Shown: piece after piece, positions 11,689 through 31,842 of the stretch
Layout: each line of letters starts with the position of its first letter
Numbering within the stretch: position 1 is the first letter of the stretch
DNA from: a virus
DNA: 42,329 nt
Strand: one strand, 5' to 3'
IMG/VR virus record: IMGVR_UViG_3300042453_000903
Coordinates: 1 to 42,329 of that record
Notes under the pieces: model-generated
Told to the model about the DNA's origin: nothing
Databases searched by the model: none
The model's input: only the letters and a program-made list of their open reading frames with translations
Program-made: the position numbers and the translations under genes

Positions 11689-13433
11689 TGGCCCGCGTCC
11701 CGCAGCTGACCGACGCGGTGGCGCTGCGCCCGGTCGAGGCGCCCTACCAGCGCATCAACACGACGGTCGACGATTTCGGGATGGGCGCCGCGCGCGCGGC
11801 CGACATGGCCGCGCAGCGGATCGACCGTTTCGGCGACACGCTGGCTCGGCGCGCGGTCGAGCTCCAGATCGAGGACAACGAGAACGACGCCAAGCGCATG
11901 GACGTGGAGCTGTCCAAGCGCATCAGGTCGATCGGCTTCGGCGACGGCACCGCGCAGAACCAGGGCTACTACGCGCTGCGAGGCCAGGCTGCGATCGACG
12001 CCTTCCCCGACGTGCGCGAGCAGGTCGAGCGCGCCAAGGCCGAGGTGCTGGGCACGGCGCGCAACCAGCGCTCGCGCGACCTGTTCGCGCTCAAGGCCGA
12101 GGAGCGGGTGTCGTCGAAGCTCGAGGGCGCGACGCGGCACCTCATGGGCGAGCGGCGCACGGCGGCCGACAACCTGTCGCAGGCGCGCCTCAACGAAGCG
12201 GTGGACGACGCCGCGGCGAACTACACGAACCAGAACAAGATATTGGAGTCGATGGCCGTCGCGCGCGCCGAGATCGCCAGCATGGCTGAGCGCAACGGAT
12301 GGTCCCCCGAGGTCGCGGCGTCCAAGCTGCAGGAGGCGCGCAGCGCGATCCACAAGACGGTGATCGAGGCGGCGCTCGACCGCGCGCCCGGCTATGCGTC
12401 GTCGTACTACCAGGCGAACAAGGCCGACATCGACGGCCGGGAGCGCGCCAAGCTGGAGAAGGCGCTCGAGGCCTCGAGCATCCGCGGCGCGGCGCAGGCG
12501 GCAGAGGATCGGATCATGGGGCAGGGGCTGTCCGAGGCCGACGCTCTTGCCGAGGCGCGCAAGATCCGCGATCCCAAGCTGCGCGACGAAGCGGTGCAGC
12601 GCGTGACCATGCGCTACGGCGAGATCGCGCGCGTCGAGCAGCGCGAAGAGCGCGCCGTGCGCGACCGCGCGTGGCAGTCGCTCGTCGGCGGGTCGAAGGT
12701 CGACGACATCCCGGCGGCCGACCTGGCGCGCATGGATGGCACGACGATTTCCGCGATGCGCGCGTTCGAGGATCGCAGGTCGAAGGAAGGCCGCGGGTTC
12801 GCGCGGGTCGACGACCCTGCGACCGACGTGAAGATCCACCGGCTGTTCATGGACGACAAGGTGGCCTTCGCCGGGTACGACATGACCCAGCACTACGGCC
12901 AGCTGACCGAGGATCGCGTGCGCTACTGGCAAGCCCTGCAGCGCAGCGTCGACAGCCGGGCCGAGAAGGACGCGCAGAAGACGACCAGCTACGCGCTGGG
13001 CGATCGCATCGCCAAGACCTACCTCGACGCGGCGAAGATCCGCTACGGCGAGGGCACGCCCAAGAAGCAGGCCGAGCAGTCGCAGCGGGTGTTCGAGCTC
13101 GTGCGCGGCGTGGCCGACCAGTTCGCGGCGCAGGGCAAGCGGCCGACCGCCCAGGACTTCGACCGCGCGCTCAAGGAGCTCTTCCTCGATGGCACGCTCG
13201 TCGGCAGCGGCACGTTCTACGACGACAGGGTCAAGGCCTTCGAGGTCGTCGGCACCGAGCGGGCGCGGCAGTTCCAGCTGCGCGACGTGGCGGCCCAGAA
13301 GCAGCGGATCAGCGAAGTGACCGGCGTGCCGGCCGGCGAGGTCGAGAAGATCGCCAAGGCGCTGCAGAACGCGCGGCAGCCGGTGACGGCTGCCAACATC
13401 AAGAAGCTCTGGGAGGCCGGCAGTGGCCGATGA
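11688..13433 (+). CDS. Internal virion protein (T7 gp15-like)
   Basis: A 581-aa, mostly helical, charged protein following the gp14-like gene with a one-base overlap. It has coiled-coil-rich segments with many A, E, R and K residues, including LARRAVELQIEDNENDAKRMDVELSKR near residue 50. Order (gp13-, gp14-, gp15-, gp16-like), size and composition point to the core protein that forms the periplasmic part of the ejection conduit. No catalytic motif is seen. The 3' end overlaps the giant gene start by 11 bases. Confidence 0.65.
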   Translation: MARVPQLTDAVALRPVEAPYQRINTTVDDFGMGAARAADMAAQRIDRFGDTLARRAVELQIEDNENDAKRMDVELSKRIRSIGFGDGTAQNQGYYALRGQAAIDAFPDVREQVERAKAEVLGTARNQRSRDLFALKAEERVSSKLEGATRHLMGERRTAADNLSQARLNEAVDDAAANYTNQNKILESMAVARAEIASMAERNGWSPEVAASKLQEARSAIHKTVIEAALDRAPGYASSYYQANKADIDGRERAKLEKALEASSIRGAAQAAEDRIMGQGLSEADALAEARKIRDPKLRDEAVQRVTMRYGEIARVEQREERAVRDRAWQSLVGGSKVDDIPAADLARMDGTTISAMRAFEDRRSKEGRGFARVDDPATDVKIHRLFMDDKVAFAGYDMTQHYGQLTEDRVRYWQALQRSVDSRAEKDAQKTTSYALGDRIAKTYLDAAKIRYGEGTPKKQAEQSQRVFELVRGVADQFAAQGKRPTAQDFDRALKELFLDGTLVGSGTFYDDRVKAFEVVGTERARQFQLRDVAAQKQRISEVTGVPAGEVEKIAKALQNARQPVTAANIKKLWEAGSGR

Positions 13434-16400
13434 CGTCGACTATGACGCGCTCGCTTCGAGCCTGTTTCCCCAGCCCAAGGGCAAGCCGGACACCTCCCCG
13501 GCCGGGCCGGCGCCCGGCGACACCGACTACGACAAGGTGCTGCGCGACCTGACCGCAGGCCAGGCGGGCGCCAACCTCCGCGCGGTGCAGGGGCTCAACC
13601 CTGACCAGGCGGCGCGCGCGCAGGCGCTGTCGCGCGCGAGCGGCCTGCCGCTGCCGGCGGTCGAGGGCGCCGAGGACCAGGTCGAGGGCGAGGTACGCAG
13701 GCAGGCGGCCGAGGCCGCGCTGCAGGGTGCGCCGCGCGTCCAGATGTTCTTCTCCAACCCTGACTTCGCCAAGGTGGCGCACGACGACGCCGAGACGCTC
13801 AGCTGGCTCGAGCGCACCTGGGCGAAGATCCGCGACACGGCGGTCGAGGAGGCCGAGGGCGCGGCCAAGGGGTTCCGCCGCGGCATGATCACGACCGACC
13901 TGCGCGACGTCGGCCGGCGGCTGTTCTGGGGGCAGGCGACGCCCGAGGACGAGGCGCGCGTGGGCGAGCTCGAGAAGGCGCAGGAGCAGCTGGAGACCGA
14001 CGCCTACCTGTCGGCGGCAGGCGAGCAGATCCCGATCATGGGGTCGATCCTGGGCAAGGCGCTGCAGCGCGGCCTGCAGACCGGCATGGCCTTCGGTGGC
14101 GGTGCTGCCCTGCTGGGCCAGCTGGGCCCGCAGGCGGCGCTGCCCGAGGAGCTCGTGACGGTGCCGGCGGCGACCGCGACCGGCTTGGCGGTCGGCGGGC
14201 GGGCCGGGGCGCTCGAGGCCGCGTGGGAGCTCGAGACCTATCTGGCGTTCATCGAATACCGCGGGCTCAAGACCTCCGACGGCAGGCCCCTCGACAACGA
14301 CGTGGCGCGCGGCGCAGCCATGCTGGCCGGGACGGTCAACGCCGGCCTCGAGGCCTACGGGCTGTCGGCGATCCTCAAGCGCGTGCCGGGCGTCGCCGAG
14401 CTCGCGCAGCTGGGCGGGCGCAAGAAGGTGGCGGCCGCGATCGGCCAAGCCGCGGCGACCAGCCCTAGCTTCGCCGCGACGCTGGCGACCTTCGGCAAGC
14501 GCTATGCCGAGGGCATCGCGATCGAGAGCCTGACCGAGATGCTGCAGGAGCTTTCGACGGCGGCCTTCGCCGAGGTCGCCAAGATGGCCGACGGCGGTGC
14601 TTTCAAGGGGGCGGGCCTCGAGGACACGGTCGAGCGCGTGATCGACGCCGGCGTGCAGGCGGCGAAGGCGACGTCCGTGCTCGGGCTGCCGGGCCCGGCC
14701 ATGCAGGCTATGGCCGACCGCAGGAGGGCCACCAAGGCCGCCAGGGACGCGGAAGCGATCAGGGAGGCCGGAGATGCGGCCGACCTCTCCAAGCTCGCCC
14801 AGCGCGATCCTGAGCGCTTTGGCGAGGTGACCGGCGCCGTCCTGCGCGACCAGGGCGTTGACACAATCGCAATTCCGGCTGCCGCGCTGCAGGAGTTCTT
14901 CCAGGGCGCGCCCGAGGGCGGCGAGCAGGCGGTCGACCAGGCCACGCTCATGCGGAACCTGGGCGTGACCGACGAGCAGATGGCCGAGGCGCTGGCCGTG
15001 GGCGGCGACGTCCACATGACGCCCGAGGCCTTCGCGCAGCACATTCTCACAAACAAAGCCACGCGCGCCGGACTGACGGAGCACGTCCGGCTGGGCGTCG
15101 ACGGCATGACCGAGGCCGAGGCGAAGGAGTGGGAGGCCACGGGGCTCAGGGAGTCCATCGACGACATGGCCTCGCTGCTCGATTCGATGGAGAGCGGCAG
15201 GCGGGTCGAGGCCGCTCGGATCGAGACCGAGGTCGAGCGCATGATGATGGCCGCGGGCGAGGCGCGCGACACGGCGCGCTACGCCGCTGTCCTGACCGCC
15301 CAGCGCTACGCGGTGCGCGCCGAGCGAGCCGGGGTGTCGCCGCTCGAGCTCTGGCAGCAGGACAACCTGCGCATCGAGCGCGTGGGCGAGGCCAGCCGGG
15401 TCGTCGACGAGATCGACATCATCCTCGACAAGGCGCGCTCGCCGGACACGCTGCGTCTGCCCAAGACGCCGATCCTCGACATGCTGGCGCGCACGGGCGT
15501 CGACCCCAACTCGCCGCTTGCCGGCGAGCTCAAGGCGCTGGGCGTCACGGCGAAGACCCGGCCGGGCCTGTTCAAGGTCGGCGGGCGCCAGGCGGCAGAC
15601 AACCTGCCGTTGGCCGAAATGCCCTGGTTCACCGCCGACGAGGACGACGGCACCGGCAACTACGTCTCCGAAGCCGCGATCCTGGCGGCGGTGCGCGACG
15701 AGCTCGCGGGCAACCCGCGGCGCACGGCCGACGAGCAGACGCGCCTCGACGGTCGCGAGAACGACATCCGCAACCTCGAGGCGGACATCGAGCGCTACAA
15801 CGAGATGAGCGGCAACGCGCTGTCGATCGTGACGAGCTCGGCGGCCGAGATCCGCGACGCGCTGCAAGAACTGGCCGACCTTGAGGCGCGTGCGTTGCAG
15901 GGTTCGGGGCCGTCTTTCGACCAGACGGCGGATCAGTCGACGCAAGAGCAGCCGACCCAGATCCAGGCGTCAGCGGCGGCCCGGCCGACCGTGGTTTCAG
16001 CTAGCGTTGAGAACGCGGCCGCGTTCGACGGCGGGGCGTCGGAGATTTCGACATCACGCAAATGGGACACTGGCAGGCAGCTGAAGCTGGCGATGCAGGA
16101 GGCCGTGCTAGCCGCAGCGCGCGCGGCTGGCGTCAATCTGTCTTCGACCAGCCAAGAGACCAAAGCGTACCTCGCGAGAATGGTGGTGCGCGACGCGCTC
16201 GCCTCGCTCAAGACCAACGACAACGCCGTCGGCTGGTATGATCTGAAAACGCGCCAAGCGCTCGCTGTCATGGCGCTGGTGCATCCCGAAATTGCCACCG
16301 ACGAAAATGCCAGGTTTGCCTTCACATGGGCGCTCGCGGTCACCTCGAACGGCCAGCGTGTCGACGCCAATTTTGAGCTAGCGCAGAAGGTCTACGAGCG

Positions 16401-19400
16401 CATGAAGGCCGACCCGCAAGGTCGGATGCCGACAGACATCAAAGCTGGCAACGCGCAGAAGGCCATCAACAAGTCTCTGGAGCTCTACAACGAGCTGCGC
16501 GAAGCGTGGGGCGCGGACAACCTGCGGCGTTTCATGTTGTCCGATTTTTCGGTCGGCGAGATTTCGGCGATCGACAAGGATCTGACGCCAACGGGCGAGT
16601 GGTCCGAGCAGGTCGTGCGTGGCGCTGCGATACTTGGACCCAAGATCGGCAACGGGTTCTTCTCGAACCTCTACGGGTACTTCGACGCACTGACGATGGA
16701 CCGCTGGCTGGTCAGGTCTTGGGGCCGGTGGACAGGGACGCTGGTCGAGATCGACAGGATAGGCGTCTTGCGATCGCGATCGCGCCTGCGCGAGGCGATC
16801 GTCGGGCTGGACGTTGGAGACTTGGCGGCGAGGCTGCGCGCGGTTACGCGAGAGGGGAAACGCGGCGCGGTGCTGGAGGTCAAGCCGACAGATCGAGAGA
16901 ACCTGATCGCTGCCCTTGAGGGAATGGGGGAAGGCCCGAGCGATGCCCAGATCGACGCATTGTCGGCGTCGATCGCTAGGGCGTCCATGACGCCGCAGTT
17001 CCGCGACGCTATGGCGCTGGTGCCGGGTGGCGACGAGTTGCGCAAGTCTGGCAACAGCCTCGCCAAGTTTCTTGACGGCCAGAAGGAGCAGCCTGCCGGC
17101 CCCGGCGAGCGCGTGCTGATCCGCGAGGTGTTTGCGGACGCGCTGGGCCAGCTGCGCCAGCAGCCCGGCCTCCAAGGGCTGACGATGTCCGACCTACAGG
17201 CCGTGCTTTGGTACGCGGAAAAGAGGCTCTACGAGACCGCCAAGGAAGACGCCGTCGTCGGGGACGAGGCGGTTGAGCAGGGGCAAATTACGGGCTATGG
17301 TGACGACGAGGCTCCAGACTACGCGAATGCTGCGGCAGCAGTGGCGCGTGCGGCTGGTGTCTCCGAGCGCCGGATCAAGGCGGCGCTGAAAAGGGAAGAA
17401 GATGGACGCGCAGCAGCAGCACGATCTGGCAATGCTCAAGCGGCGCAAGGTGTCGCCGGGCAGCCGACAGAAGCTCGAGGCTTCGTTGGCCGAGAAAGGC
17501 GCCGGTTCATCGAAACTCGCGCCGTCTATCGGGCACGATCCAATCGCGACGGCGATGAGAAACCATCCTGGTCTTACGAGGGAAAAGGCCGAAGAGATGG
17601 CGGAGGCGTTCGGCTTCTAGTTCGCAGGCGCGGGCTAGGCGTCACGGTCGCGACCGAGTGGTCGCCAGGACGGAACCTCGCCAACACCTTCCGCGCCAAT
17701 GGCATGAAGGCGCCAACCTATTACGAGTTGGCGCAGGGCGACGCGCAGAACGCTGAAAGGTTCGCAGCTGCTATTGCAGCTGCAAGCTCGTCGCATGGTT
17801 TTGGCGCCGCGGTCTATGTGTATCCGGCGCAAGACTACGCCAACATGCGGCTTTTCCTGTCTGAAGACGGCAACGCCGGTTTCGCACTCAAGGCCGACGG
17901 CGACATCGTTTCAGTGTTTGGAGCAAGAGGGTCCGGCACCGGGCGCGCGACGATGGAACTAGCCGTCGCTGCAGGTGGACGAAAGCTCGACGCCTTCGAC
18001 ACGATGCTGCCGGAGTTCTATAGCGCGCACGGGTTTCGGGCCGTCTCCAGGCTTACATGGGACGACGAGCAGGCGCCAGCGAACTGGGACAAGCAGAAGT
18101 TCGGCGAATACAACAACGGCGAGCCCGACGTCGTCTTCATGGTGTACGACCCAACCTGGCAGGGTGAATACGCCAGGACTGACGGCAAGAGGTTCTCTGG
18201 CAGGAACGCCTACGGCAGGGCTGTGCAAGCCCAAGCATCGCAGACGATCGCGCCGGCGACGTTCGAGCAGTCCGGCGCGCCACGCGAGCGCGGCGTCTTC
18301 GCCGACGTCGAAGACCAGCTGGACGCTCTGGCGCAGGACATCGACGGCATCCGTGACGGCGAGTTCGACCCGGCCGCAGCGCGCAAGGTGCTCGACAAGC
18401 TGAGCGACGCCGACCGCGACGACCCCCGCGCGCGCATGCTGGATCGCGCCCTGCTGTGGCTCGACGGCCAGATCGACGCCGACCAGGACGCGGTCGCAGA
18501 GGAGATCGCGACGGTCCTTGAGCAGGCGCGGCAGATCGGCGAGATGCGCGCGGGCATGTCGGCGGCGGCGGGGCGTGGAACGCTCGAGCAACCCGCCCGC
18601 GGCTCGATCCAGTTCAACCCCGGCCAGATCATCATCCGGCTGGGCGCTGGTGCCGACCGGTCGACGTTCCTGCATGAGAGCGGGCACCTCTACCTTGAGC
18701 AGCTGCGCGCCGACGCTGCTGCCTATGGGGCCGGGCGCCCGCAGCTGGCGCAGGATCTCCAGACGGTCAATGACTGGTTCGCGTCCAATGCTGGCGCGAT
18801 CCGCCAGGAGGCGATCGCCTACGCGCGCAAGGCCGGCGACGCCGTGAGCGTGACGACGCTCGAGGCCATGACCGACGACCAGGTCGAGGCGATGGCGAAG
18901 GCTGGCGGTCTTGCCGGCATGCCGCGCACGGCATCGCCCGACGGCCACCTGGCGCGCGCCGCGCACGAGCAGTGGGCGCGCGGCACCGAGGACTACTTCC
19001 GCACCGGTTTGGCGCCGAGCGTGGCGCTGCAGGACGCCTTCAACAGGTTCCGCGCGTGGCTGGTGTCGATCTATGCCGCGCTGCGGCGCAGGCTTGGCGC
19101 CGAGCAGCTGTCCGTTCGGTTCTCGCGCGAGGTCAGAGAGGTCATGGACCGCATGCTCGCGACCGACGAGGAGATCGCGCTTGTCGAGCAGCAATACAAC
19201 CTGCGCGCCATGTTCGCCTCTCCCGAAGAGGCCAGCATGTCCCCCGAGCGCTTCGCGGCTTACCAGGCCGCGGTGATGGCGGCGGGCGAGGCTGCGCGCA
19301 CCGAGCAGCTGCGCCGGCACATGCGCGAGGTCGAGCGCGAGAAGGCGGCGTGGTGGCGAGAGGAACGGGCCAAGCTGCGCGAGGAGGTCGCGGCCGAGGT

Positions 19401-22400
19401 GCGCGCGAGGCCGGTGTTCCTCGCCATCCACGCGCTGGCGGCGGGCAAGATGCCCGACGGCCAGCCCCTGCCGGCGGGGCTGGTGCAGCCGCGCATGAGC
19501 CGCGAGGCGGTCGTGGCGCTGCTCGAGAACCAGAAGTCGCTGTCGAGGCTGCCGCGGGTGAAGGGCCGCACGGTCTACGCGACGGCCCAGGGCGAGAGCG
19601 GCTCGCACCCCGACGTCGTGGCGTCCTTCTACGGGTTCGACAGCGGGCGCGACATGCTCATAGCGATGATGAACACGAACGGCGTCGAGACGACGATCGA
19701 CCGCGAGACCGACGAGCGGATGCGCGAGCGGCACGGCGACATGCAGGTCGACGGCACGGCGGTCGACAAGGCGGTCGAGAGCGCGCACACGGACAAGCGC
19801 GGCGACGTCCTGATCGCCGAGCTCAACGCGCTGCAGAGCGGCGGCGGCACGAAGCTGAAGCCCGCGTTCCTGCGCCAGTGGGCGCGCGAGCGCATCGCCG
19901 GCCGGAAGGTTTCCGAGCTCCAGCCGCAGCGTTTCCTGATGGCCGAGCGCAAGGCTGGGCGCGCTGCCGACCGGGCGCTGGCGTCGGGCGACCGCACCGA
20001 GGCGCTCAAGGCCAAGTTCCAGCAGGCGCTGAACTTCTACATGGCGCACGAGGCCTACAAGGCGCGGGCCGAGATCGAGAAGGCGGTCGACTACCTGTCC
20101 GGCTTCACGCGCGCCGCGGCCAAGTTCCCGGCGCTCGAGGCCGGCTACGTCGACCAGATCCGCACGATCCTCGACGCCTACCAGCTGGGGCCGCAACTGA
20201 TGGAGCGCACGCGCGTGCGGCTTGAGATGCAGGCGGTGCTGGACTGGATCGAGCGCCAGCGCCAGGACGCGGGCGCGACGATCGAGATGCCGCAGCGGAT
20301 CATCGACGCGGACGAGCGGACCAACTACCAGGCGCTCACGCTCGACGAGTTCCGCACGCTGCGCGACACGATCAAGAACCTGGAGGCGCAGGGGCGGCTC
20401 GCGAAGACTGCGCTGATCGACGGCGAGGAGTTCGCCATCTCCGAGATGGCGAACGATATTGCCGCGAGCGCTGAGCGCAACCCGCAGCTGCCACGCATGG
20501 CGCGCCGCGCCGTCGAGCAGAACCCCGGCGTCCTCGACCGCGCGCGCAGCAAGCTCGCATCGTTCGACGCCGCGCTGCGCAAGGTCGAGCTACTCGTCGA
20601 GCAGGTCGACGGCCAGCGCATGGGGCCGCTCTGGAGGTTCCTGTTCAAGCCGTTCGCTGACGCGGAGGCCGCGCGCAAAGACATGACGCTGCGGGTGACG
20701 CAGCGGGTCATGGACGCGATCGACAACCTGCCGACGCGCTCTCGCCTGGCCGAGCGCATCACGGTCCCGCTGCTCGGACGGACGTTCGCGCGATCGGACC
20801 TGATCATGATGGCGCTCAACGTCGGAAACGAAAGCAACTTCGAGAAGATGATCGAGGGCTCGGAGAAGGACGTCACCGATGGTGCGACGCCGTTCACGGT
20901 GGCCGGCGTCGACGAGGCGCTCGCCAACCTGACGGCCGAGGAGTGGACCTTCGTGCAGGAGGTCTGGGATGCGTTCGAGGCGATGTGGCCCCAGGTGCGC
21001 GAGGTCTACCGCCGCGAGAACGGCGTCGCGCCCGAGCGCGTCGATGCCCGCACGATCGAGACCCGCTACGGGCAGTCGCTGCGCGGCGGCTACTTCCCGA
21101 TGATGTACGACCCCTCGCGCTCTGTGCAGGCGCGCGACATCGAGGGCAAGACGGCGCTCGAGGCGATGCAGTCGACGGTCGTGCGCGCGTCGGTCAACTC
21201 CAGCATGACCAAGGCGCGCACCGGGTTCTCGGCGCCCGTGCTGCTCGACATCACGGCGCTGCCCAACCATATCGAGCGCACTGCGCACTTCATCACGCAC
21301 TACGAGCCCGTGCGCATCGCGCGCAAGCTGCTGGCTCGCCAGCGCGTGGTGCGCGCGCTCAACAACCGCGTCGGGCCCGAGCTCTACGACACGCTCAAGG
21401 CCTGGGTGCAGGAGCTCGCGGCGAACGGCCAGCCGGTGGCGCCGACGTCGATCGGCGGCCGGCTCGTCGAGGCCATGCGCCGCAACGCGACCGTGGCGAT
21501 CATGGGCCTGAGCTACACGACGATGGTCGCGCAGGTGTTCGGCCTCGCCAACTCGATCGACGCGCTGTCGCGCACGCCCGGCGGCGGGTACTCGCCGCGG
21601 CGCGGCACGACCGCGATGCTGGGCGGGCTGGTGCGCTACCTCGCGTCGCCCGCGCAGGTGCGCGCGCAGGTCTTCGCGGCGTCTGGCGAGATGCGGCACC
21701 GGCTGCAGAACACCGACCGCGACATCCGCCACGCGCTGCAGCAGCTGTCGGGCAAGCGCGGGGCGTGGTCCCAGATGCAGCGCTTCAGCCTGATGGGCAT
21801 TGCCGGCATCCAGCTCTACATGGTCGACTTGCCGACGTGGCTCGCGGCCTATGACCAGGCCATCGCGCGCGGGGCGACGACCGACGAGGCCGTCGACGCC
21901 GCCGACAACATCCTGCGCACGAGCCAGACCGCCGGCGGGATCAAGGATCTCGCGGCGATCCAGCGCGAGCGCGGCGTGATGACCGCGCTGACCATGTTCT
22001 ATTCGTACTTCAACCTGCTCTACAACCTGCAGCGCCAGGCGCTGGGCAACGTGCGCGGCGTGCGCGACGTGCCGCAGCTGGCCGCGCGGGCGTTCATCCT
22101 GATGGCGGTGCCCATCATGGTCGACGCGCTCGTCAAGCGGCAGGGGCCGGACGAGGACAAGGAAGAGACGCTGGCCGGCTTTCTGGCGGCGAAGGCCGCG
22201 GTCTACGCGATGTCGTCGCTGCCGTTCCTGCGCGACCTCGCCGGGCTGGCCGAAGGGTTCGGCTACAAGCCGACCCCGCTCGACGGGTTCGGCAAGGCGC
22301 TGGGGGCGTCCGTCAAGGGCATCGCCGAGGCGATCGACAACGGCGAGCTCGACGCCAAGGCGCTCAAGGCGCTGGTGTCGGCGCTCGGGTTCGGGGCCGG

Positions 22401-22509
22401 CGTGCCGGCGACGCAGGTCAACCGGGTGATCTCGGCGGCCGACGCGATGTTCGAGGGTGAAGACGTGGGCGTCTACGACTTCCTCGCGGGACCGAAAAAG
22501 GACAAGTAG
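13423..22509 (+). CDS. Giant internal virion (ejection) protein with metallopeptidase motif
   Basis: One uninterrupted ORF of 3028 aa from GTG 13423 (GGGAGG at about 13411). It occupies the T7 gp16 position, the largest core protein. Residues 1-830 are helical and include glycine/alanine-rich hydrophobic segments around 205-260. Residues about 850-1605 are an inserted module (separate entry). HESGH at 1751-1755, in STFLHESGHLYLEQL, is a zinc-metallopeptidase HExxH motif as found in large polyvalent phage and element proteins. The region after about 2000 is long and helical; the last third contains MTALTMFYSYFNLLYNLQRQ and a hydrophobic AFILMAVPIMVDAL, typical of C-terminal large-polyvalent-protein domains. 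It probably enters the host with the DNA; the peptidase could cut peptidoglycan-associated or cytoplasmic targets. Linkers SFDQTA, TFEQSGAP and TLEQPARGS separate the modules. Confidence 0.85.
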   Translation: MADDVDYDALASSLFPQPKGKPDTSPAGPAPGDTDYDKVLRDLTAGQAGANLRAVQGLNPDQAARAQALSRASGLPLPAVEGAEDQVEGEVRRQAAEAALQGAPRVQMFFSNPDFAKVAHDDAETLSWLERTWAKIRDTAVEEAEGAAKGFRRGMITTDLRDVGRRLFWGQATPEDEARVGELEKAQEQLETDAYLSAAGEQIPIMGSILGKALQRGLQTGMAFGGGAALLGQLGPQAALPEELVTVPAATATGLAVGGRAGALEAAWELETYLAFIEYRGLKTSDGRPLDNDVARGAAMLAGTVNAGLEAYGLSAILKRVPGVAELAQLGGRKKVAAAIGQAAATSPSFAATLATFGKRYAEGIAIESLTEMLQELSTAAFAEVAKMADGGAFKGAGLEDTVERVIDAGVQAAKATSVLGLPGPAMQAMADRRRATKAARDAEAIREAGDAADLSKLAQRDPERFGEVTGAVLRDQGVDTIAIPAAALQEFFQGAPEGGEQAVDQATLMRNLGVTDEQMAEALAVGGDVHMTPEAFAQHILTNKATRAGLTEHVRLGVDGMTEAEAKEWEATGLRESIDDMASLLDSMESGRRVEAARIETEVERMMMAAGEARDTARYAAVLTAQRYAVRAERAGVSPLELWQQDNLRIERVGEASRVVDEIDIILDKARSPDTLRLPKTPILDMLARTGVDPNSPLAGELKALGVTAKTRPGLFKVGGRQAADNLPLAEMPWFTADEDDGTGNYVSEAAILAAVRDELAGNPRRTADEQTRLDGRENDIRNLEADIERYNEMSGNALSIVTSSAAEIRDALQELADLEARALQGSGPSFDQTADQSTQEQPTQIQASAAARPTVVSASVENAAAFDGGASEISTSRKWDTGRQLKLAMQEAVLAAARAAGVNLSSTSQETKAYLARMVVRDALASLKTNDNAVGWYDLKTRQALAVMALVHPEIATDENARFAFTWALAVTSNGQRVDANFELAQKVYERMKADPQGRMPTDIKAGNAQKAINKSLELYNELREAWGADNLRRFMLSDFSVGEISAIDKDLTPTGEWSEQVVRGAAILGPKIGNGFFSNLYGYFDALTMDRWLVRSWGRWTGTLVEIDRIGVLRSRSRLREAIVGLDVGDLAARLRAVTREGKRGAVLEVKPTDRENLIAALEGMGEGPSDAQIDALSASIARASMTPQFRDAMALVPGGDELRKSGNSLAKFLDGQKEQPAGPGERVLIREVFADALGQLRQQPGLQGLTMSDLQAVLWYAEKRLYETAKEDAVVGDEAVEQGQITGYGDDEAPDYANAAAAVARAAGVSERRIKAALKREEDGRAAAARSGNAQAAQGVAGQPTEARGFVGRERRRFIETRAVYRARSNRDGDEKPSWSYEGKGRRDGGGVRLLVRRRGLGVTVATEWSPGRNLANTFRANGMKAPTYYELAQGDAQNAERFAAAIAAASSSHGFGAAVYVYPAQDYANMRLFLSEDGNAGFALKADGDIVSVFGARGSGTGRATMELAVAAGGRKLDAFDTMLPEFYSAHGFRAVSRLTWDDEQAPANWDKQKFGEYNNGEPDVVFMVYDPTWQGEYARTDGKRFSGRNAYGRAVQAQASQTIAPATFEQSGAPRERGVFADVEDQLDALAQDIDGIRDGEFDPAAARKVLDKLSDADRDDPRARMLDRALLWLDGQIDADQDAVAEEIATVLEQARQIGEMRAGMSAAAGRGTLEQPARGSIQFNPGQIIIRLGAGADRSTFLHESGHLYLEQLRADAAAYGAGRPQLAQDLQTVNDWFASNAGAIRQEAIAYARKAGDAVSVTTLEAMTDDQVEAMAKAGGLAGMPRTASPDGHLARAAHEQWARGTEDYFRTGLAPSVALQDAFNRFRAWLVSIYAALRRRLGAEQLSVRFSREVREVMDRMLATDEEIALVEQQYNLRAMFASPEEASMSPERFAAYQAAVMAAGEAARTEQLRRHMREVEREKAAWWREERAKLREEVAAEVRARPVFLAIHALAAGKMPDGQPLPAGLVQPRMSREAVVALLENQKSLSRLPRVKGRTVYATAQGESGSHPDVVASFYGFDSGRDMLIAMMNTNGVETTIDRETDERMRERHGDMQVDGTAVDKAVESAHTDKRGDVLIAELNALQSGGGTKLKPAFLRQWARERIAGRKVSELQPQRFLMAERKAGRAADRALASGDRTEALKAKFQQALNFYMAHEAYKARAEIEKAVDYLSGFTRAAAKFPALEAGYVDQIRTILDAYQLGPQLMERTRVRLEMQAVLDWIERQRQDAGATIEMPQRIIDADERTNYQALTLDEFRTLRDTIKNLEAQGRLAKTALIDGEEFAISEMANDIAASAERNPQLPRMARRAVEQNPGVLDRARSKLASFDAALRKVELLVEQVDGQRMGPLWRFLFKPFADAEAARKDMTLRVTQRVMDAIDNLPTRSRLAERITVPLLGRTFARSDLIMMALNVGNESNFEKMIEGSEKDVTDGATPFTVAGVDEALANLTAEEWTFVQEVWDAFEAMWPQVREVYRRENGVAPERVDARTIETRYGQSLRGGYFPMMYDPSRSVQARDIEGKTALEAMQSTVVRASVNSSMTKARTGFSAPVLLDITALPNHIERTAHFITHYEPVRIARKLLARQRVVRALNNRVGPELYDTLKAWVQELAANGQPVAPTSIGGRLVEAMRRNATVAIMGLSYTTMVAQVFGLANSIDALSRTPGGGYSPRRGTTAMLGGLVRYLASPAQVRAQVFAASGEMRHRLQNTDRDIRHALQQLSGKRGAWSQMQRFSLMGIAGIQLYMVDLPTWLAAYDQAIARGATTDEAVDAADNILRTSQTAGGIKDLAAIQRERGVMTALTMFYSYFNLLYNLQRQALGNVRGVRDVPQLAARAFILMAVPIMVDALVKRQGPDEDKEETLAGFLAAKAAVYAMSSLPFLRDLAGLAEGFGYKPTPLDGFGKALGASVKGIAEAIDNGELDAKALKALVSALGFGAGVPATQVNRVISAADAMFEGEDVGVYDFLAGPKKDK
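15990..18230 (+). other. Inserted polyvalent module inside the giant virion gene
   Basis: Within the giant frame, about residues 856-1605 differ from the flanks. Codon third positions carry visibly more A and T, and the domains are those of mobile-element polyvalent proteins. The first part contains VGWYDLKTRQALAVMALVHP and later GPKIGNGFFSNLYGYFDALT, which resembles the DUF7178-type domain as I remember it. The second part, with LFLSEDGNAGFALKADGDIV and KLDAFDTMLPEFYSAHGFRA, looks like an N-acyltransferase-type effector domain. Similar FEQ-type linkers lie at both ends, suggesting insertion by recombination at linker DNA. Functions are unknown; injected effectors are an inference. Confidence 0.6.
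17402..17620 (+). CDS. Nested ORF (72 aa) in a second frame of the giant gene
   Basis: An ATG-started ORF in the +1 frame relative to the giant gene, preceded by AAAAGGGAAG (about 17389-17398), a good ribosome binding site. The product begins MDAQQQHDLAMLKRRKVSPG and ends AMRNHPGLTREKAEEMAEAFGF, a balanced, soluble composition. It resembles short hypothetical proteins that I associate with DUF7178-type genes in phages and plasmids, where they would be separate ORFs. The giant frame over the same bases is arginine/glycine-rich, as expected when another frame is constrained. Either both are translated or this is a relic of a formerly separate gene. Confidence 0.5.
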   Translation: MDAQQQHDLAMLKRRKVSPGSRQKLEASLAEKGAGSSKLAPSIGHDPIATAMRNHPGLTREKAEEMAEAFGF

Positions 22510-29549: not shown

Positions 29550-30641
29550 CATCCTGGCGGCGATCAGGTCGCCGGCCGCGCGAGCGGCGGCGGTCCCGGC
29601 CTCCTCGAGCAGGTGGGCGTAGCCCTTCGTGGTCTGCGCCGACCTGTGCCCGAGGAGCTCGCCGATCTGGTGCAGGCTCACGCCGGCGGCCAGGGCGGCG
29701 CTCGCGAAGCTGTGCCGCAGGTCGTGCATGCGCAGGTCGGGGCAGCCCGCGGCCTCGCGCACGGCAACCCAGCACTTGTGCGGGCAGTCGATCCCCGTGA
29801 TCGTGCCGCCGCGCACGCGGGGCAGGGACCGCAGGACCGCGATCGCTTGGGGCGGCAGGTGGATGACGCGCTCGCTGCCGTCGGCGTCGGCCTTGTGCTC
29901 GCGCAGGCGGATCGTGCTGCCGTGGACGTCTGACCAGCGGGCGCGGGCGATCTCGCCGCGGCGCGCGCCGGTCCAAATCAGGAGCCGGATGAAGGCGACC
30001 GCCTGCGGGTAGCGCGCCTGCCGGACGTCGAGCGCGGCCGCGATCCGGCGCGCCTCGTCGACCGTCATGTAGCGGCGCCGCCGGCGCTCGCGGTTCCGCT
30101 CGACGCCTTGGCACGGGTTCGGGCCGGGGTGCCATTGCCAGCGGCGCACGGCCAGGCTCATGGCCTTGGACAGGCAGGCCAGCGCGCGGTTGGCGGCGAC
30201 GCGCCGGGGGATGGCGGCGTGCCACACCACGACGTCGCCGTGCGTCAGGTCGGCGACCTTGGTGGTGCCGAGCCTTGGCCGGATCCAGCGGGCGATGACG
30301 CTGCGGTCGCCGGCTGCGCTCTTCTTCCGGTCGCCGTGCTCGGCCTGGTAGCGGTCGAGGAGCTCGGCCACGGTCGGCGCGGCGCGTGCGGCCTGGCGCT
30401 CGGCGGACGGATCCTCGCCGGCGGCCACGCGCTCGAGCATCTCGCGCGCGATGGCGCGCGCGCGGGCCTGCCGGATGGTCGGCCAGTCTCCGATGCGGGG
30501 CCGGCGCTGGGCGCCGCGCCTGCTGCGGTAGTAGAGAAACCAGGTGCGCCGGGCGCCGCGCACGCGCAGCTGCAGGCCCGGCACCTGCTCGTCCTTGAGC
30601 GTCGCGCCGTCCGGCGCGGCGAGGATTTCTGGGTCACGCAT
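29418..30641 (-). CDS. int: Tyrosine-family site-specific integrase
   Basis: A 407-aa protein transcribed leftward. It has an arm-binding N-terminal domain (ATLKDEQVPGLQLRVRGARR), a core-binding domain (about 85-180) and a catalytic domain with R227 in TGARRGEI, a lysine near 250, H306 and R309 in HDLRH, H332 in LLGHRS and Y341 in TTKGYAHL. It recombines attP (30777-30823) with a host tRNA-Phe gene. Most relatives end soon after the tyrosine helix; here about 43 extra charged residues overlap the opposite-strand gene, suggesting loss of an earlier stop. No strong ribosome binding site is seen. Confidence 0.93.
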   Translation of the reverse strand: MRDPEILAAPDGATLKDEQVPGLQLRVRGARRTWFLYYRSRRGAQRRPRIGDWPTIRQARARAIAREMLERVAAGEDPSAERQAARAAPTVAELLDRYQAEHGDRKKSAAGDRSVIARWIRPRLGTTKVADLTHGDVVVWHAAIPRRVAANRALACLSKAMSLAVRRWQWHPGPNPCQGVERNRERRRRRYMTVDEARRIAAALDVRQARYPQAVAFIRLLIWTGARRGEIARARWSDVHGSTIRLREHKADADGSERVIHLPPQAIAVLRSLPRVRGGTITGIDCPHKCWVAVREAAGCPDLRMHDLRHSFASAALAAGVSLHQIGELLGHRSAQTTKGYAHLLEEAGTAAARAAGDLIAARMSAGQDRDDRHGRVDRDRPVQRRAAEQPDDVELVAPTRDQPADG

Positions 30642-30891
30642 GGTGGTCTATTTTTCGCGGCTGGGTCACGGCTGGGTCACGGCTGTTCGTTGTCATGCGT
30701 GAACAGCATACATCCAGTTTCGTTGAGTATCAGCCATTTATGGGCGGGCGTGTCCCGCCGTTACCCGTCCCGGCCAGACTGAAAATCGCAGTGTCGCTGG
30801 TTCGATTCCGGCCCTGGGCACCATTACTTTTCAATAGCTTAGCGCGACCCGCCCGATGCAGCCGAAAGGCGCTGGGTCACAACTGGGTCAC
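30629..30891. repeat. Integrase arm-type repeats, CTGGGTCAC x5
   Basis: The 9-mer CTGGGTCAC occurs at 30629, 30661 and 30672 on the integrase side of the att core and at 30872 and 30883 on the other side. The two pairs each have an 11-base period, one helical turn. This matches arm-type integrase sites flanking a core, as in lambda attP. One copy overlaps the integrase start codon. A 7-bp inverted repeat (GCTGTTC 30682-30688 with GAACAGC 30701-30707) and a GGCGGG/CCCGCC hairpin (30743-30759) lie between the left arms and the core and could bind accessory proteins. Confidence 0.8.
30777..30823 (+). other. attP core: 3' half of tRNA-Phe (GAA)
   Basis: The stretch runs from the anticodon loop (CTGAAAA, anticodon GAA) through a T arm (GCTGG TTCGATT CCGGC) and acceptor strand CCTGGGC to A-CCA at 30820-30823. 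There is no matching 5' half: the bases before 30777 do not pair with the anticodon stem. This is the usual attP design, in which integration rebuilds the host tRNA. The implied host tRNA-Phe has acceptor 5' strand GCCCAGG and anticodon stem TGCGA. Confidence 0.88.
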
Positions 30892-30901
30892 GGAAACGAA
30901 A

Positions 30902-30930
30902 GGGGCGCCTCGCATGACACGAGGCGCCCC
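30902..30930 (-). terminator. Hairpin terminator after the excisionase gene
   Basis: A perfect 11-bp stem (GGGGCGCCTCG 30902-30912 with 30920-30930) and a 7-base loop. Reading leftward it is followed by TTTCGTTTCC, a partial T tract. It would stop excisionase transcripts before attP and the integrase. Confidence 0.7.
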
Positions 30931-30963: not shown

Positions 30964-31158
30964 CTACGCGCGCGTGTGCGCGCGCTCGAACTCCTGCACG
31001 AATTGCACGGGGTAGAGGACGGTGCGGCCGACCTTGACGAAGGCCGGGCCCTTCCCCTGCGCGCGCCAGTTCGACAGCGTGCCGGCGCTCTTGTGCCAGC
31101 GGCGCGCCAGCTGGTCGGGGGTCAGGTGCTCGGGCTGCTGCTCTGCCGTGTCCATCAT
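30964..31158 (-). CDS. xis: Excisionase-like MerR/HTH protein
   Basis: A 64-aa protein with one winged-helix-type domain: EHLTPDQLARRWHKSAGTLS is the helix-turn-helix, followed by NWRAQGKGPAFVKVGRTVLYP, the usual wing of excisionase-like proteins. Two ATGs at the start (31158 and 31155) are possible; GAGG precedes both. Its location beside attP suggests it is the recombination directionality factor; a transcription regulator is the alternative. Confidence 0.78.
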   Translation of the reverse strand: MMDTAEQQPEHLTPDQLARRWHKSAGTLSNWRAQGKGPAFVKVGRTVLYPVQFVQEFERAHTRA

Positions 31159-31183: not shown

Positions 31184-31211
31184 AGGATAGCGGATCGTGC
31201 GGTTCCGTCAA
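31184..31211 (-). promoter_or_regulatory. Leftward promoter for the excisionase gene
   Basis: On the minus strand, TTGACG (31206-31211) and TATCCT (31184-31189) are separated by 16 bases. They lie between the repressor stop and the excisionase start, so the excisionase can be transcribed separately from the repressor. Confidence 0.5.
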
Positions 31212-31230: not shown

Positions 31231-31842
31231 TCACGGCCGGATCCAGAGGACCGGCGCGGCGCTCGCGACGCGCATGTCCTCGAGCAGCCCGCCGCCAGGC
31301 AGCAGCAGGTTGTGCGCGCCGTCGGCGTAGCCGCGGCGCAGCGTGCCGAGGTGTCGCGTGCCGGCGCTGTCCTCGACGATCGCGAGCCTGCCGGCGACGA
31401 GCTCGGCGGCGACGGCGCGCGAGGGCTGGAAGAACAGAACCCATCCGTCCATGAAGTCGAGCGCGCTGCCGGCGGTCTGGGCGCGCACCGCGACGACGTC
31501 GGCGGGCAGGGCCGGGTGGCCCTCGACGGACACGCTGCTCTTGTCGAGCCGCACGATCATGCGCGCGTCGACGCTGCCGACCATGCGCACCCTGGTCGGT
31601 GCCGGCGCGGAGCCGGGGCGCGCGGCGATGCGCACGCCCGCATGGGCCAGCACCTCCGCGACGTCAACGCCGAGGAAATCCGCTATCTCCTGAGCCTGCG
31701 GCAGCTGCAGCCGGCGGCGGCCGTCGAACAACAGCGACACCGCGCTAGCGTCGATGCCCATGTGCTGCGCGAGCGCGCGCTGCGTAGTCTTGCGAGCGCG
31801 CAGTTGCGCGGTGAACCAGTCCTTGTCGACCTTCGTCTTCAT
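31231..31842 (-). CDS. CI-like phage repressor
   Basis: A 203-aa protein. I take ATG at 31842 (MKTKVDKDWF); a TTG start 12 codons upstream is possible. Residues 15-60 form an XRE-type helix-turn-helix (TTQRALAQHMGIDASAVSLL). The C-terminal 120 residues look like the S24/LexA beta fold (GWVLFFQPSR, GRLAIVED, HLGTLRRGY), but I cannot find the catalytic serine in a GDSM context or a clear lysine, so self-cleavage may be absent. It faces an operator-rich gap with the early promoter on the other side, the standard immunity layout. Confidence 0.85.
   Translation of the reverse strand: MKTKVDKDWFTAQLRARKTTQRALAQHMGIDASAVSLLFDGRRRLQLPQAQEIADFLGVDVAEVLAHAGVRIAARPGSAPAPTRVRMVGSVDARMIVRLDKSSVSVEGHPALPADVVAVRAQTAGSALDFMDGWVLFFQPSRAVAAELVAGRLAIVEDSAGTRHLGTLRRGYADGAHNLLLPGGGLLEDMRVASAAPVLWIRP

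Follow-up and report, generated by a model that had tools for sequence, protein, structure and literature searches.

On the minus strand of the window (the whole analyzed stretch of 42,329 nucleotides) the genes for a CI-like repressor, an excisionase-like protein (xis) and an integrase (int) follow one another in this order, with a predicted phage attachment site (attP) between xis and int, so that the two genes sit at its opposite sides (Table 1). The integrase combines a catalytic domain (PF00589) with an arm-binding domain (PF13356), and its residues R227, H306, R309, H332 and Y341, the catalytic R-H-R-H-Y set, were invariant in the alignment. An in-frame TAG two codons 5' of the ATG fixes the start of int. 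The word CTGGGTCAC occurs here in five exact copies, all on the plus strand and spanning 263 bp, with no sixth exact copy in the 42-kb window. Three copies lie to one side and two to the other side of a 47-nt tRNA-Phe 3' half; the period within each of the two pairs is 11 bp, and the first copy starts 32 bp before the second. No 9-mer formed such a cluster in 60 Markov-1 surrogates (random sequences with the dinucleotide make-up of the window), in which the maximum was three copies per 263 bp. An exact word scan of the window confirmed what a preliminary description had reported on the number and coordinates of the sites, their 11-base phasing and the 47-base tRNA half. It had also let one site cover the integrase start codon, which has to be corrected: this site (30629-30637) occupies codons 2-5 and thus falls inside the coding start of int, and one base separates the ATG (30639-30641) from the site.

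Table 1. Features of the int-attP-xis-cI region (window coordinates)
Feature	Position	Strand	Basis
Integrase gene (int), tyrosine recombinase, 407 aa	29418..30641	-	PF00589, PF13356, phrog_1 integrase
Extra (fifth) arm-type site	30629..30637	+	Exact CTGGGTCAC; over int codons 2-5; no separate counterpart in G001
19-nt AT-rich segment TGGTGGTCTATTTTTCGCG	30641..30659	-	Touches int ATG; exact copy upstream of xis in G001
P-arm site 1, conserved pair	30661..30669	+	Exact CTGGGTCAC; same register in G001; equivalent pairs in relatives
P-arm site 2, conserved pair	30672..30680	+	Exact CTGGGTCAC; 11 bp from site 1; G001 and relatives
IHF-like site H (TATCAGCCATTTA)	30728..30740	+	Exact WATCARNNNNTTR; G001 at same distance from core
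attP core: tRNA-Phe 3' half, anticodon stem to CCA	30777..30823	+	Exact in 50 genome contigs; identical in G001
Predicted 7-bp strand-exchange region, anticodon loop CTGAAAA	30779..30785	+	Inferred from shared block in integrated relatives
IHF-like site H' (TTTCAATAGCTTA)	30829..30841	+	One mismatch to consensus; between core and P' pair
P'-arm site 1	30872..30880	+	Exact CTGGGTCAC; G001 and relatives
P'-arm site 2	30883..30891	+	Exact CTGGGTCAC; 11 bp from P'-arm site 1; G001 and relatives
Terminator hairpin ending xis transcript	30902..30930	-	Strong stem and T-rich tail; between xis and P' arm
Excisionase-like gene (xis), 64 aa HTH	30964..31158	-	PF12728; phrog_66 excisionase and transcriptional regulator
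Candidate xis promoter TTGACG-16-TATCCT	31184..31211	-	Promoter scan; G001 has TTGACG-16-GATACT at same place
CI-like repressor gene, upstream of xis	31231..31842	-	HTH families; phrog_4 and phrog_3949 repressors

Two IMG/VR contigs are closely related to the window. Both the sister phage G001 (L010; IMGVR 3300042305_000436), which is mostly 82-84% identical to the window in nucleotides (about 82%) and has an integrase 86% identical in amino acids, and G002 (mostly 94-98% nucleotide identity) are circular permutations of the window, indicating that the attP is present here in its unintegrated form. Likewise, the attP is intact with both arms, so that the window represents the circular or packaged phage rather than a prophage end. 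The G001 phage shares the genome plan, the cI-xis-attP-int order, the core, the pair positions relative to the core and the 11-bp phasing, and differs in the arm word, in the number of sites and in the start codon of int (GTG). All four of its arm words read CTGGTCAC in place of CTGGGTCAC, and this joint change of every copy is expected if one protein reads them. It lacks a 32-bp segment and therefore has four sites, so that the first site of the window is the extra one. The tRNA half is identical in both phages while the flanks differ. The identity extends over 11 further bases (58 nt in total), and we considered a longer core; the extra bases are better explained by the H' IHF-like site. The G002 contig ends at window positions 29633 and 33892, either side of the int-attP-xis-cI region, which might mean that this region varies or exists in more than one state in the sample.

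Only one exact match to the IHF consensus WATCARNNNNTTR exists in the window; it lies at 30728, with the P pair on one side and the core on the other. Both IHF-like sites have counterparts in G001 at equal distances. Across 23 attPs, 34 IHF-like matches with at most one mismatch were observed, against 6.7 expected from shuffled segments, and many relatives keep a constant spacing from the tRNA T-loop to the H' match behind it. H and H' are consensus matches at conserved positions between the arms and the core, and putative IHF sites.

The same layout recurs in far more distant phages. A search with an integrase alignment yielded 80 IMG/VR loci, to which two later searches added more, and the 520 bases upstream of int were scanned in the relatives for word pairs with an 11-bp period. 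About 25 elements, with integrases 33-53% identical to that of the window, carry two pairs of one word at this period, arranged as a tandem pair, usually a recognizable tRNA half, often an IHF-like site, and a second tandem pair. Several hundred segments of these loci served as controls, and a single one, from L096, reached a comparable score; this match may be the displaced attP of the locus itself. Seen from the int strand, the words include TGCGACCAG, TGCTACCAG, TGCTTCCAG, TGCGACCTG and GTGACCCAG; they are equal or nearly equal inside one attP and differ from phage to phage. The cores start near the anticodon loop and, by reading the anticodon, belong to tRNA-Asn, -Lys and -Thr in the phage set and to tRNA-Met, -Lys, -Thr, -His and -Phe in the genome set. 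The distances between the P and P' pairs (208-211, 219-220, 227-231, 242-243, 246 and 261 bp) fall near whole helical turns, with a Rayleigh p of about 2e-5 for all values and of 0.014 for unique values, the latter being the fairer figure because the elements are related. Most relatives with at least 44% integrase identity have xis past the P' pair and on the same strand, so that the attP divides it from int; in some relatives it is 0.7-1.5 kb off, and in more distant ones it is found elsewhere. A literature search for an attP lying between int and xis returned nothing under those words.

Two members of this set deserve mention for their deviations. Upstream of int in L115 the core is cut after the anticodon region and there is no P' pair, reflecting either a deletion or an assembly joint. 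In L221, unlike in other members, the P and P' pairs differ in their word (GCATGACC and GTGCTACC), and this attP has possibly been caught in transition. The word CTGGGTCAC itself also turned up outside the family. Its pairs in L003, L005, L007 and L008 have no integrase-like neighbor and look like chance, and those in L004/L006 and L002/L009 belong to other integrases and were rejected as kin of the window attP. In L002 (1328-1521) and L009 (1415-1609) the 11-bp pairs flank a different tRNA core, and the integrases are only distantly related; the shared word could stem from convergence or from a common arm domain.

The 47-nt core, GACTGAAAATC...CACCA, was found exactly in 50 genome contigs, each time inside an intact tRNA-Phe gene with the matching 5' half GCCCAGG; the tRNA-Phe gene that the preliminary description had proposed to search for thus exists. 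All named contigs are from Alphaproteobacteria (Roseomonas and relatives, Magnetospirillum, Hyphomicrobium, Aquabacter and others). This exact match, together with the duplication of the half in an integrated relative, identifies the core as the sequence of a chromosomal attB, which integration would restore. The further expectation that the core would help to find the host held for the class, Alphaproteobacteria, but not for one host, since 50 contigs share the same 47-mer. Structural genes of the phage have distant relatives in alphaproteobacterial genomes (a portal-like protein in G413 is 63% identical), and tetranucleotide use and GC content (69%) come closest to Falsiroseomonas and Elioraea, which is weak evidence; we predict the host to class, with Acetobacteraceae as the best guess. 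In the G413 prophage 18 kb separate the terminase gene from a tRNA-Phe gene, and it was considered as a host case; it was rejected because the genes after this tRNA are all host-like and an arm pair is absent there. The 58-nt sequence including TTACTTTTCAA had no match in 84,980 species genomes, and the 50 contigs bearing the 47-mer all lacked TGGGTCAC within 600 bp of the tRNA. No integrase relative with E<1e-60 was found in 398 genomes of the G003 family (Roseomonas), a search that had no positive control and proves little. The same tRNA-Phe gene holds prophages with other integrases and GTCCCACT repeats in L014, L015, L016, L026 and L066, and is therefore a shared integration site in Alphaproteobacteria.

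Integrated relatives, with integrases only about 36-40% identical to that of the window, were found in two genomes. In a Rhodospirillales genome (G010) a complete tRNA-Phe gene (C4:105292-105367) has the pair GGGTATCAC/GGGTATCGC behind it; 13 kb further on lie an integrase gene, a pair of two GGGTATCAC copies and a tRNA-Phe 3' half with the sequence of the window core from its second base onward, so that the half is duplicated at both ends of the element. In an Acetobacteraceae genome (G012) the target is tRNA-Met: its 3' half is duplicated over 44 nt, and the 10-kb element has three sites per end. The ends of both elements are as predicted: the tRNA and a P' arm at one, and int, a P arm and the 3' half at the other. 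Their shared block starts at the anticodon loop or one base earlier, which suggests the strand-exchange region given in Table 1. The preliminary description had asked after prophages with the same left and right ends; searches of the species genomes, the 47-mer contigs and the G003 family revealed no genome with this phage integrated, but G010 has a distantly related integrase in the same tRNA-Phe gene with the same anatomy. It also brings together the two things on which that description had made its reading depend, namely this tRNA half and related prophage DNA beside it. No clear xis was recognized at the tRNA end of the G010 or G012 element, and the separation of xis and int in the prophage is therefore a prediction.

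Together, the sister phage, the layout in the relatives and the integrated relative strongly support the reading as an attP whose core comes from tRNA-Phe and whose repeats are arm sites of the integrase, and we consider it very probable that a temperate phage of podovirus-like type, with an alphaproteobacterium as host, has its attP at positions 30629-30891. Sequence comparison shows the anatomy of the site and its conserved geometry, as well as intact tRNA genes of hosts that match it and a relative with the attL/attR structure. The notion of five phased arm sites needs qualification: four sites in two pairs are conserved, and the fifth is an addition missing from the sister phage. The site is of a known kind, ordinary in mechanism and well preserved. 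The N-terminal arm-binding domain of the integrase would bind the CTGGGTCAC sites and its other domains the core inside the tRNA-Phe half. By bending the DNA at H and H', IHF could let the P and P' pairs act together across a distance of about 20 helical turns. Crossover in the host would take place at the anticodon loop of its tRNA-Phe gene, which the phage core would restore, leaving the tRNA, the P' arm and xis at one end and int, the P arm and the displaced tRNA 3' half at the other. Because the attP lies between xis and int, integration should place these genes at opposite prophage ends.

Phage lambda has arm sites flanking the core, IHF sites between arms and core, and an Int with a separate arm-binding domain. 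The window resembles it in having arms on both sides of the core, a tyrosine integrase with an arm-binding domain and IHF-like sites in between. It differs in that lambda has the order attP-int-xis, a target outside tRNA genes and an unequal arm arrangement, whereas the attP of the window divides xis from int. The target of ICEMlSymR7A, an element of Mesorhizobium, is a tRNA-Phe gene. This alphaproteobacterial element shares the number of arm-type sites with the window: five lie in its 283-bp attP, and its IntS lowers the expression of its own gene (PMC11963761). Unlike the window, it is an ICE with the arm consensus TGKTGGTATC, and its rdfS gene is in the conjugation operon, away from the attP. 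The KplE1 (CPS-53)/HK620 module of Escherichia coli, with IntS and TorI, has int beside its own arm sites and a tRNA target, like the window, a likeness of module layout. Int and xis on opposite sides of the attP, a mark of KplE1-type modules, are found in the window too. IHF is used in KplE1, whereas IHF-like sites are read in the window; the KplE1 target is argW, and autorepression is shown there and inferred here. KplE1 has an int promoter that overlaps att; intS is under repression by both IntS and TorI, and its transcript is separate from that of the excisionase gene (PMC2951348).

Placed between xis and int, close to the start of int and next door to genes for a CI-like repressor and an HTH protein, the CTGGGTCAC repeats could in principle be repressor operators or Xis binding sites, with the tRNA half alone serving as attachment core. 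This is very unlikely given that pairs of the same orientation flank the core on both sides, at fixed distances and in phages with different cores, that the word changes together in all copies and varies among phages, and that integrated relatives without a clear xis still have the pairs. Even less credible, to the point of near dismissal, is that the tRNA half plays no part in integration and is left over from a phage tRNA gene or from transduced host DNA. Pieces of tRNA can occur in phages, and ARAGORN found no complete tRNA in the window, but the half runs from the anticodon stem to CCA like those of other attPs, is identical in G001 despite differing flanks, and is duplicated at both ends of the integrated G010 element.

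On the reading of the repeats as integrase arm sites, the integrase bound beside the int start might repress int. The precedents of KplE1 and ICEMlSymR7A make this plausible (PMC2951348, PMC11963761), the sites at 30629-30680 lie next to and inside the int start, and the promoter scan recognized no convincing int promoter upstream of int, which counts against it; we regard the chances of autorepression as about evenly balanced. The same promoter result fits a different control, in which int would be co-transcribed with xis or cI in the circle and switched off when integration cuts the transcript, arm binding by the integrase playing a minor part. The order cI, xis, attP and int on one strand agrees with this, as does the upstream, same-strand position of xis in most relatives with at least 44% identity. 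A strong terminator with compensating changes stands between xis and the attP, however, and int of KplE1 has its own promoter inside att (PMC2951348), so we think co-transcription rather unlikely, though well ahead of the operator and relic explanations. In G001 the terminator stem is retained with altered bases, including a U-G pair possible only in the minus-strand RNA, and transcription of xis thus probably stops short of the attP. With a candidate promoter of its own and a terminator facing the attP, xis appears to be transcribed separately from int; read-through from xis to int may still occur in the circular form. The copy of TGGTGGTCTATTTTTCGCG in the G001 contig (24042-24060; L089) lies upstream of the xis promoter, in opposite orientation relative to the window. 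We rejected this segment as a widespread operator: its 16-mer occurs in nine contigs, of which G001 is the only known relative.

Within the arm-binding domain, the position of Q45 in the window integrase is Glu or Gln in most members. All 14 rows with Glu have CG at word positions 3-4 (TGCGACC-type words from the int strand), and 13 of 16 rows with Gln have CT or TG there (Fisher p 5e-6, kinship disregarded). Two rules were registered before new data were seen. Glu with G held in four of four new integrases, one of which (L216) equals a known one; Gln with T at arm position 4 was dropped, as two of the four new cases contradicted it. The independent changes on the tree are too few for significance, and the link between residue 45 and word choice is a lead only. 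We suggest tentatively, and with some doubt, that the clade records changing arm-site recognition, with the helical frame fixed, all copies within an attP changing jointly and residue 45 helping to pick the word.

For a lineage of uncultivated alphaproteobacterial phages, the window provides an attP that is complete and open to comparison; it links the phage to a tRNA-Phe target, and the relatives add cases in which an attP divides the excisionase gene from int. A family in which the layout is fixed and only the arm word and the tRNA vary may help to decode arm-site recognition, and its natural integrase/attP pairs make both recognition and the helical-spacing rule testable. Elsewhere in the window, an open frame of 3028 codons (13423-22509) matches phrog_9880, a family with no assigned function, and sits in a podovirus-like structural region with a head-tail adaptor (phrog_332) and a tail protein (phrog_376).
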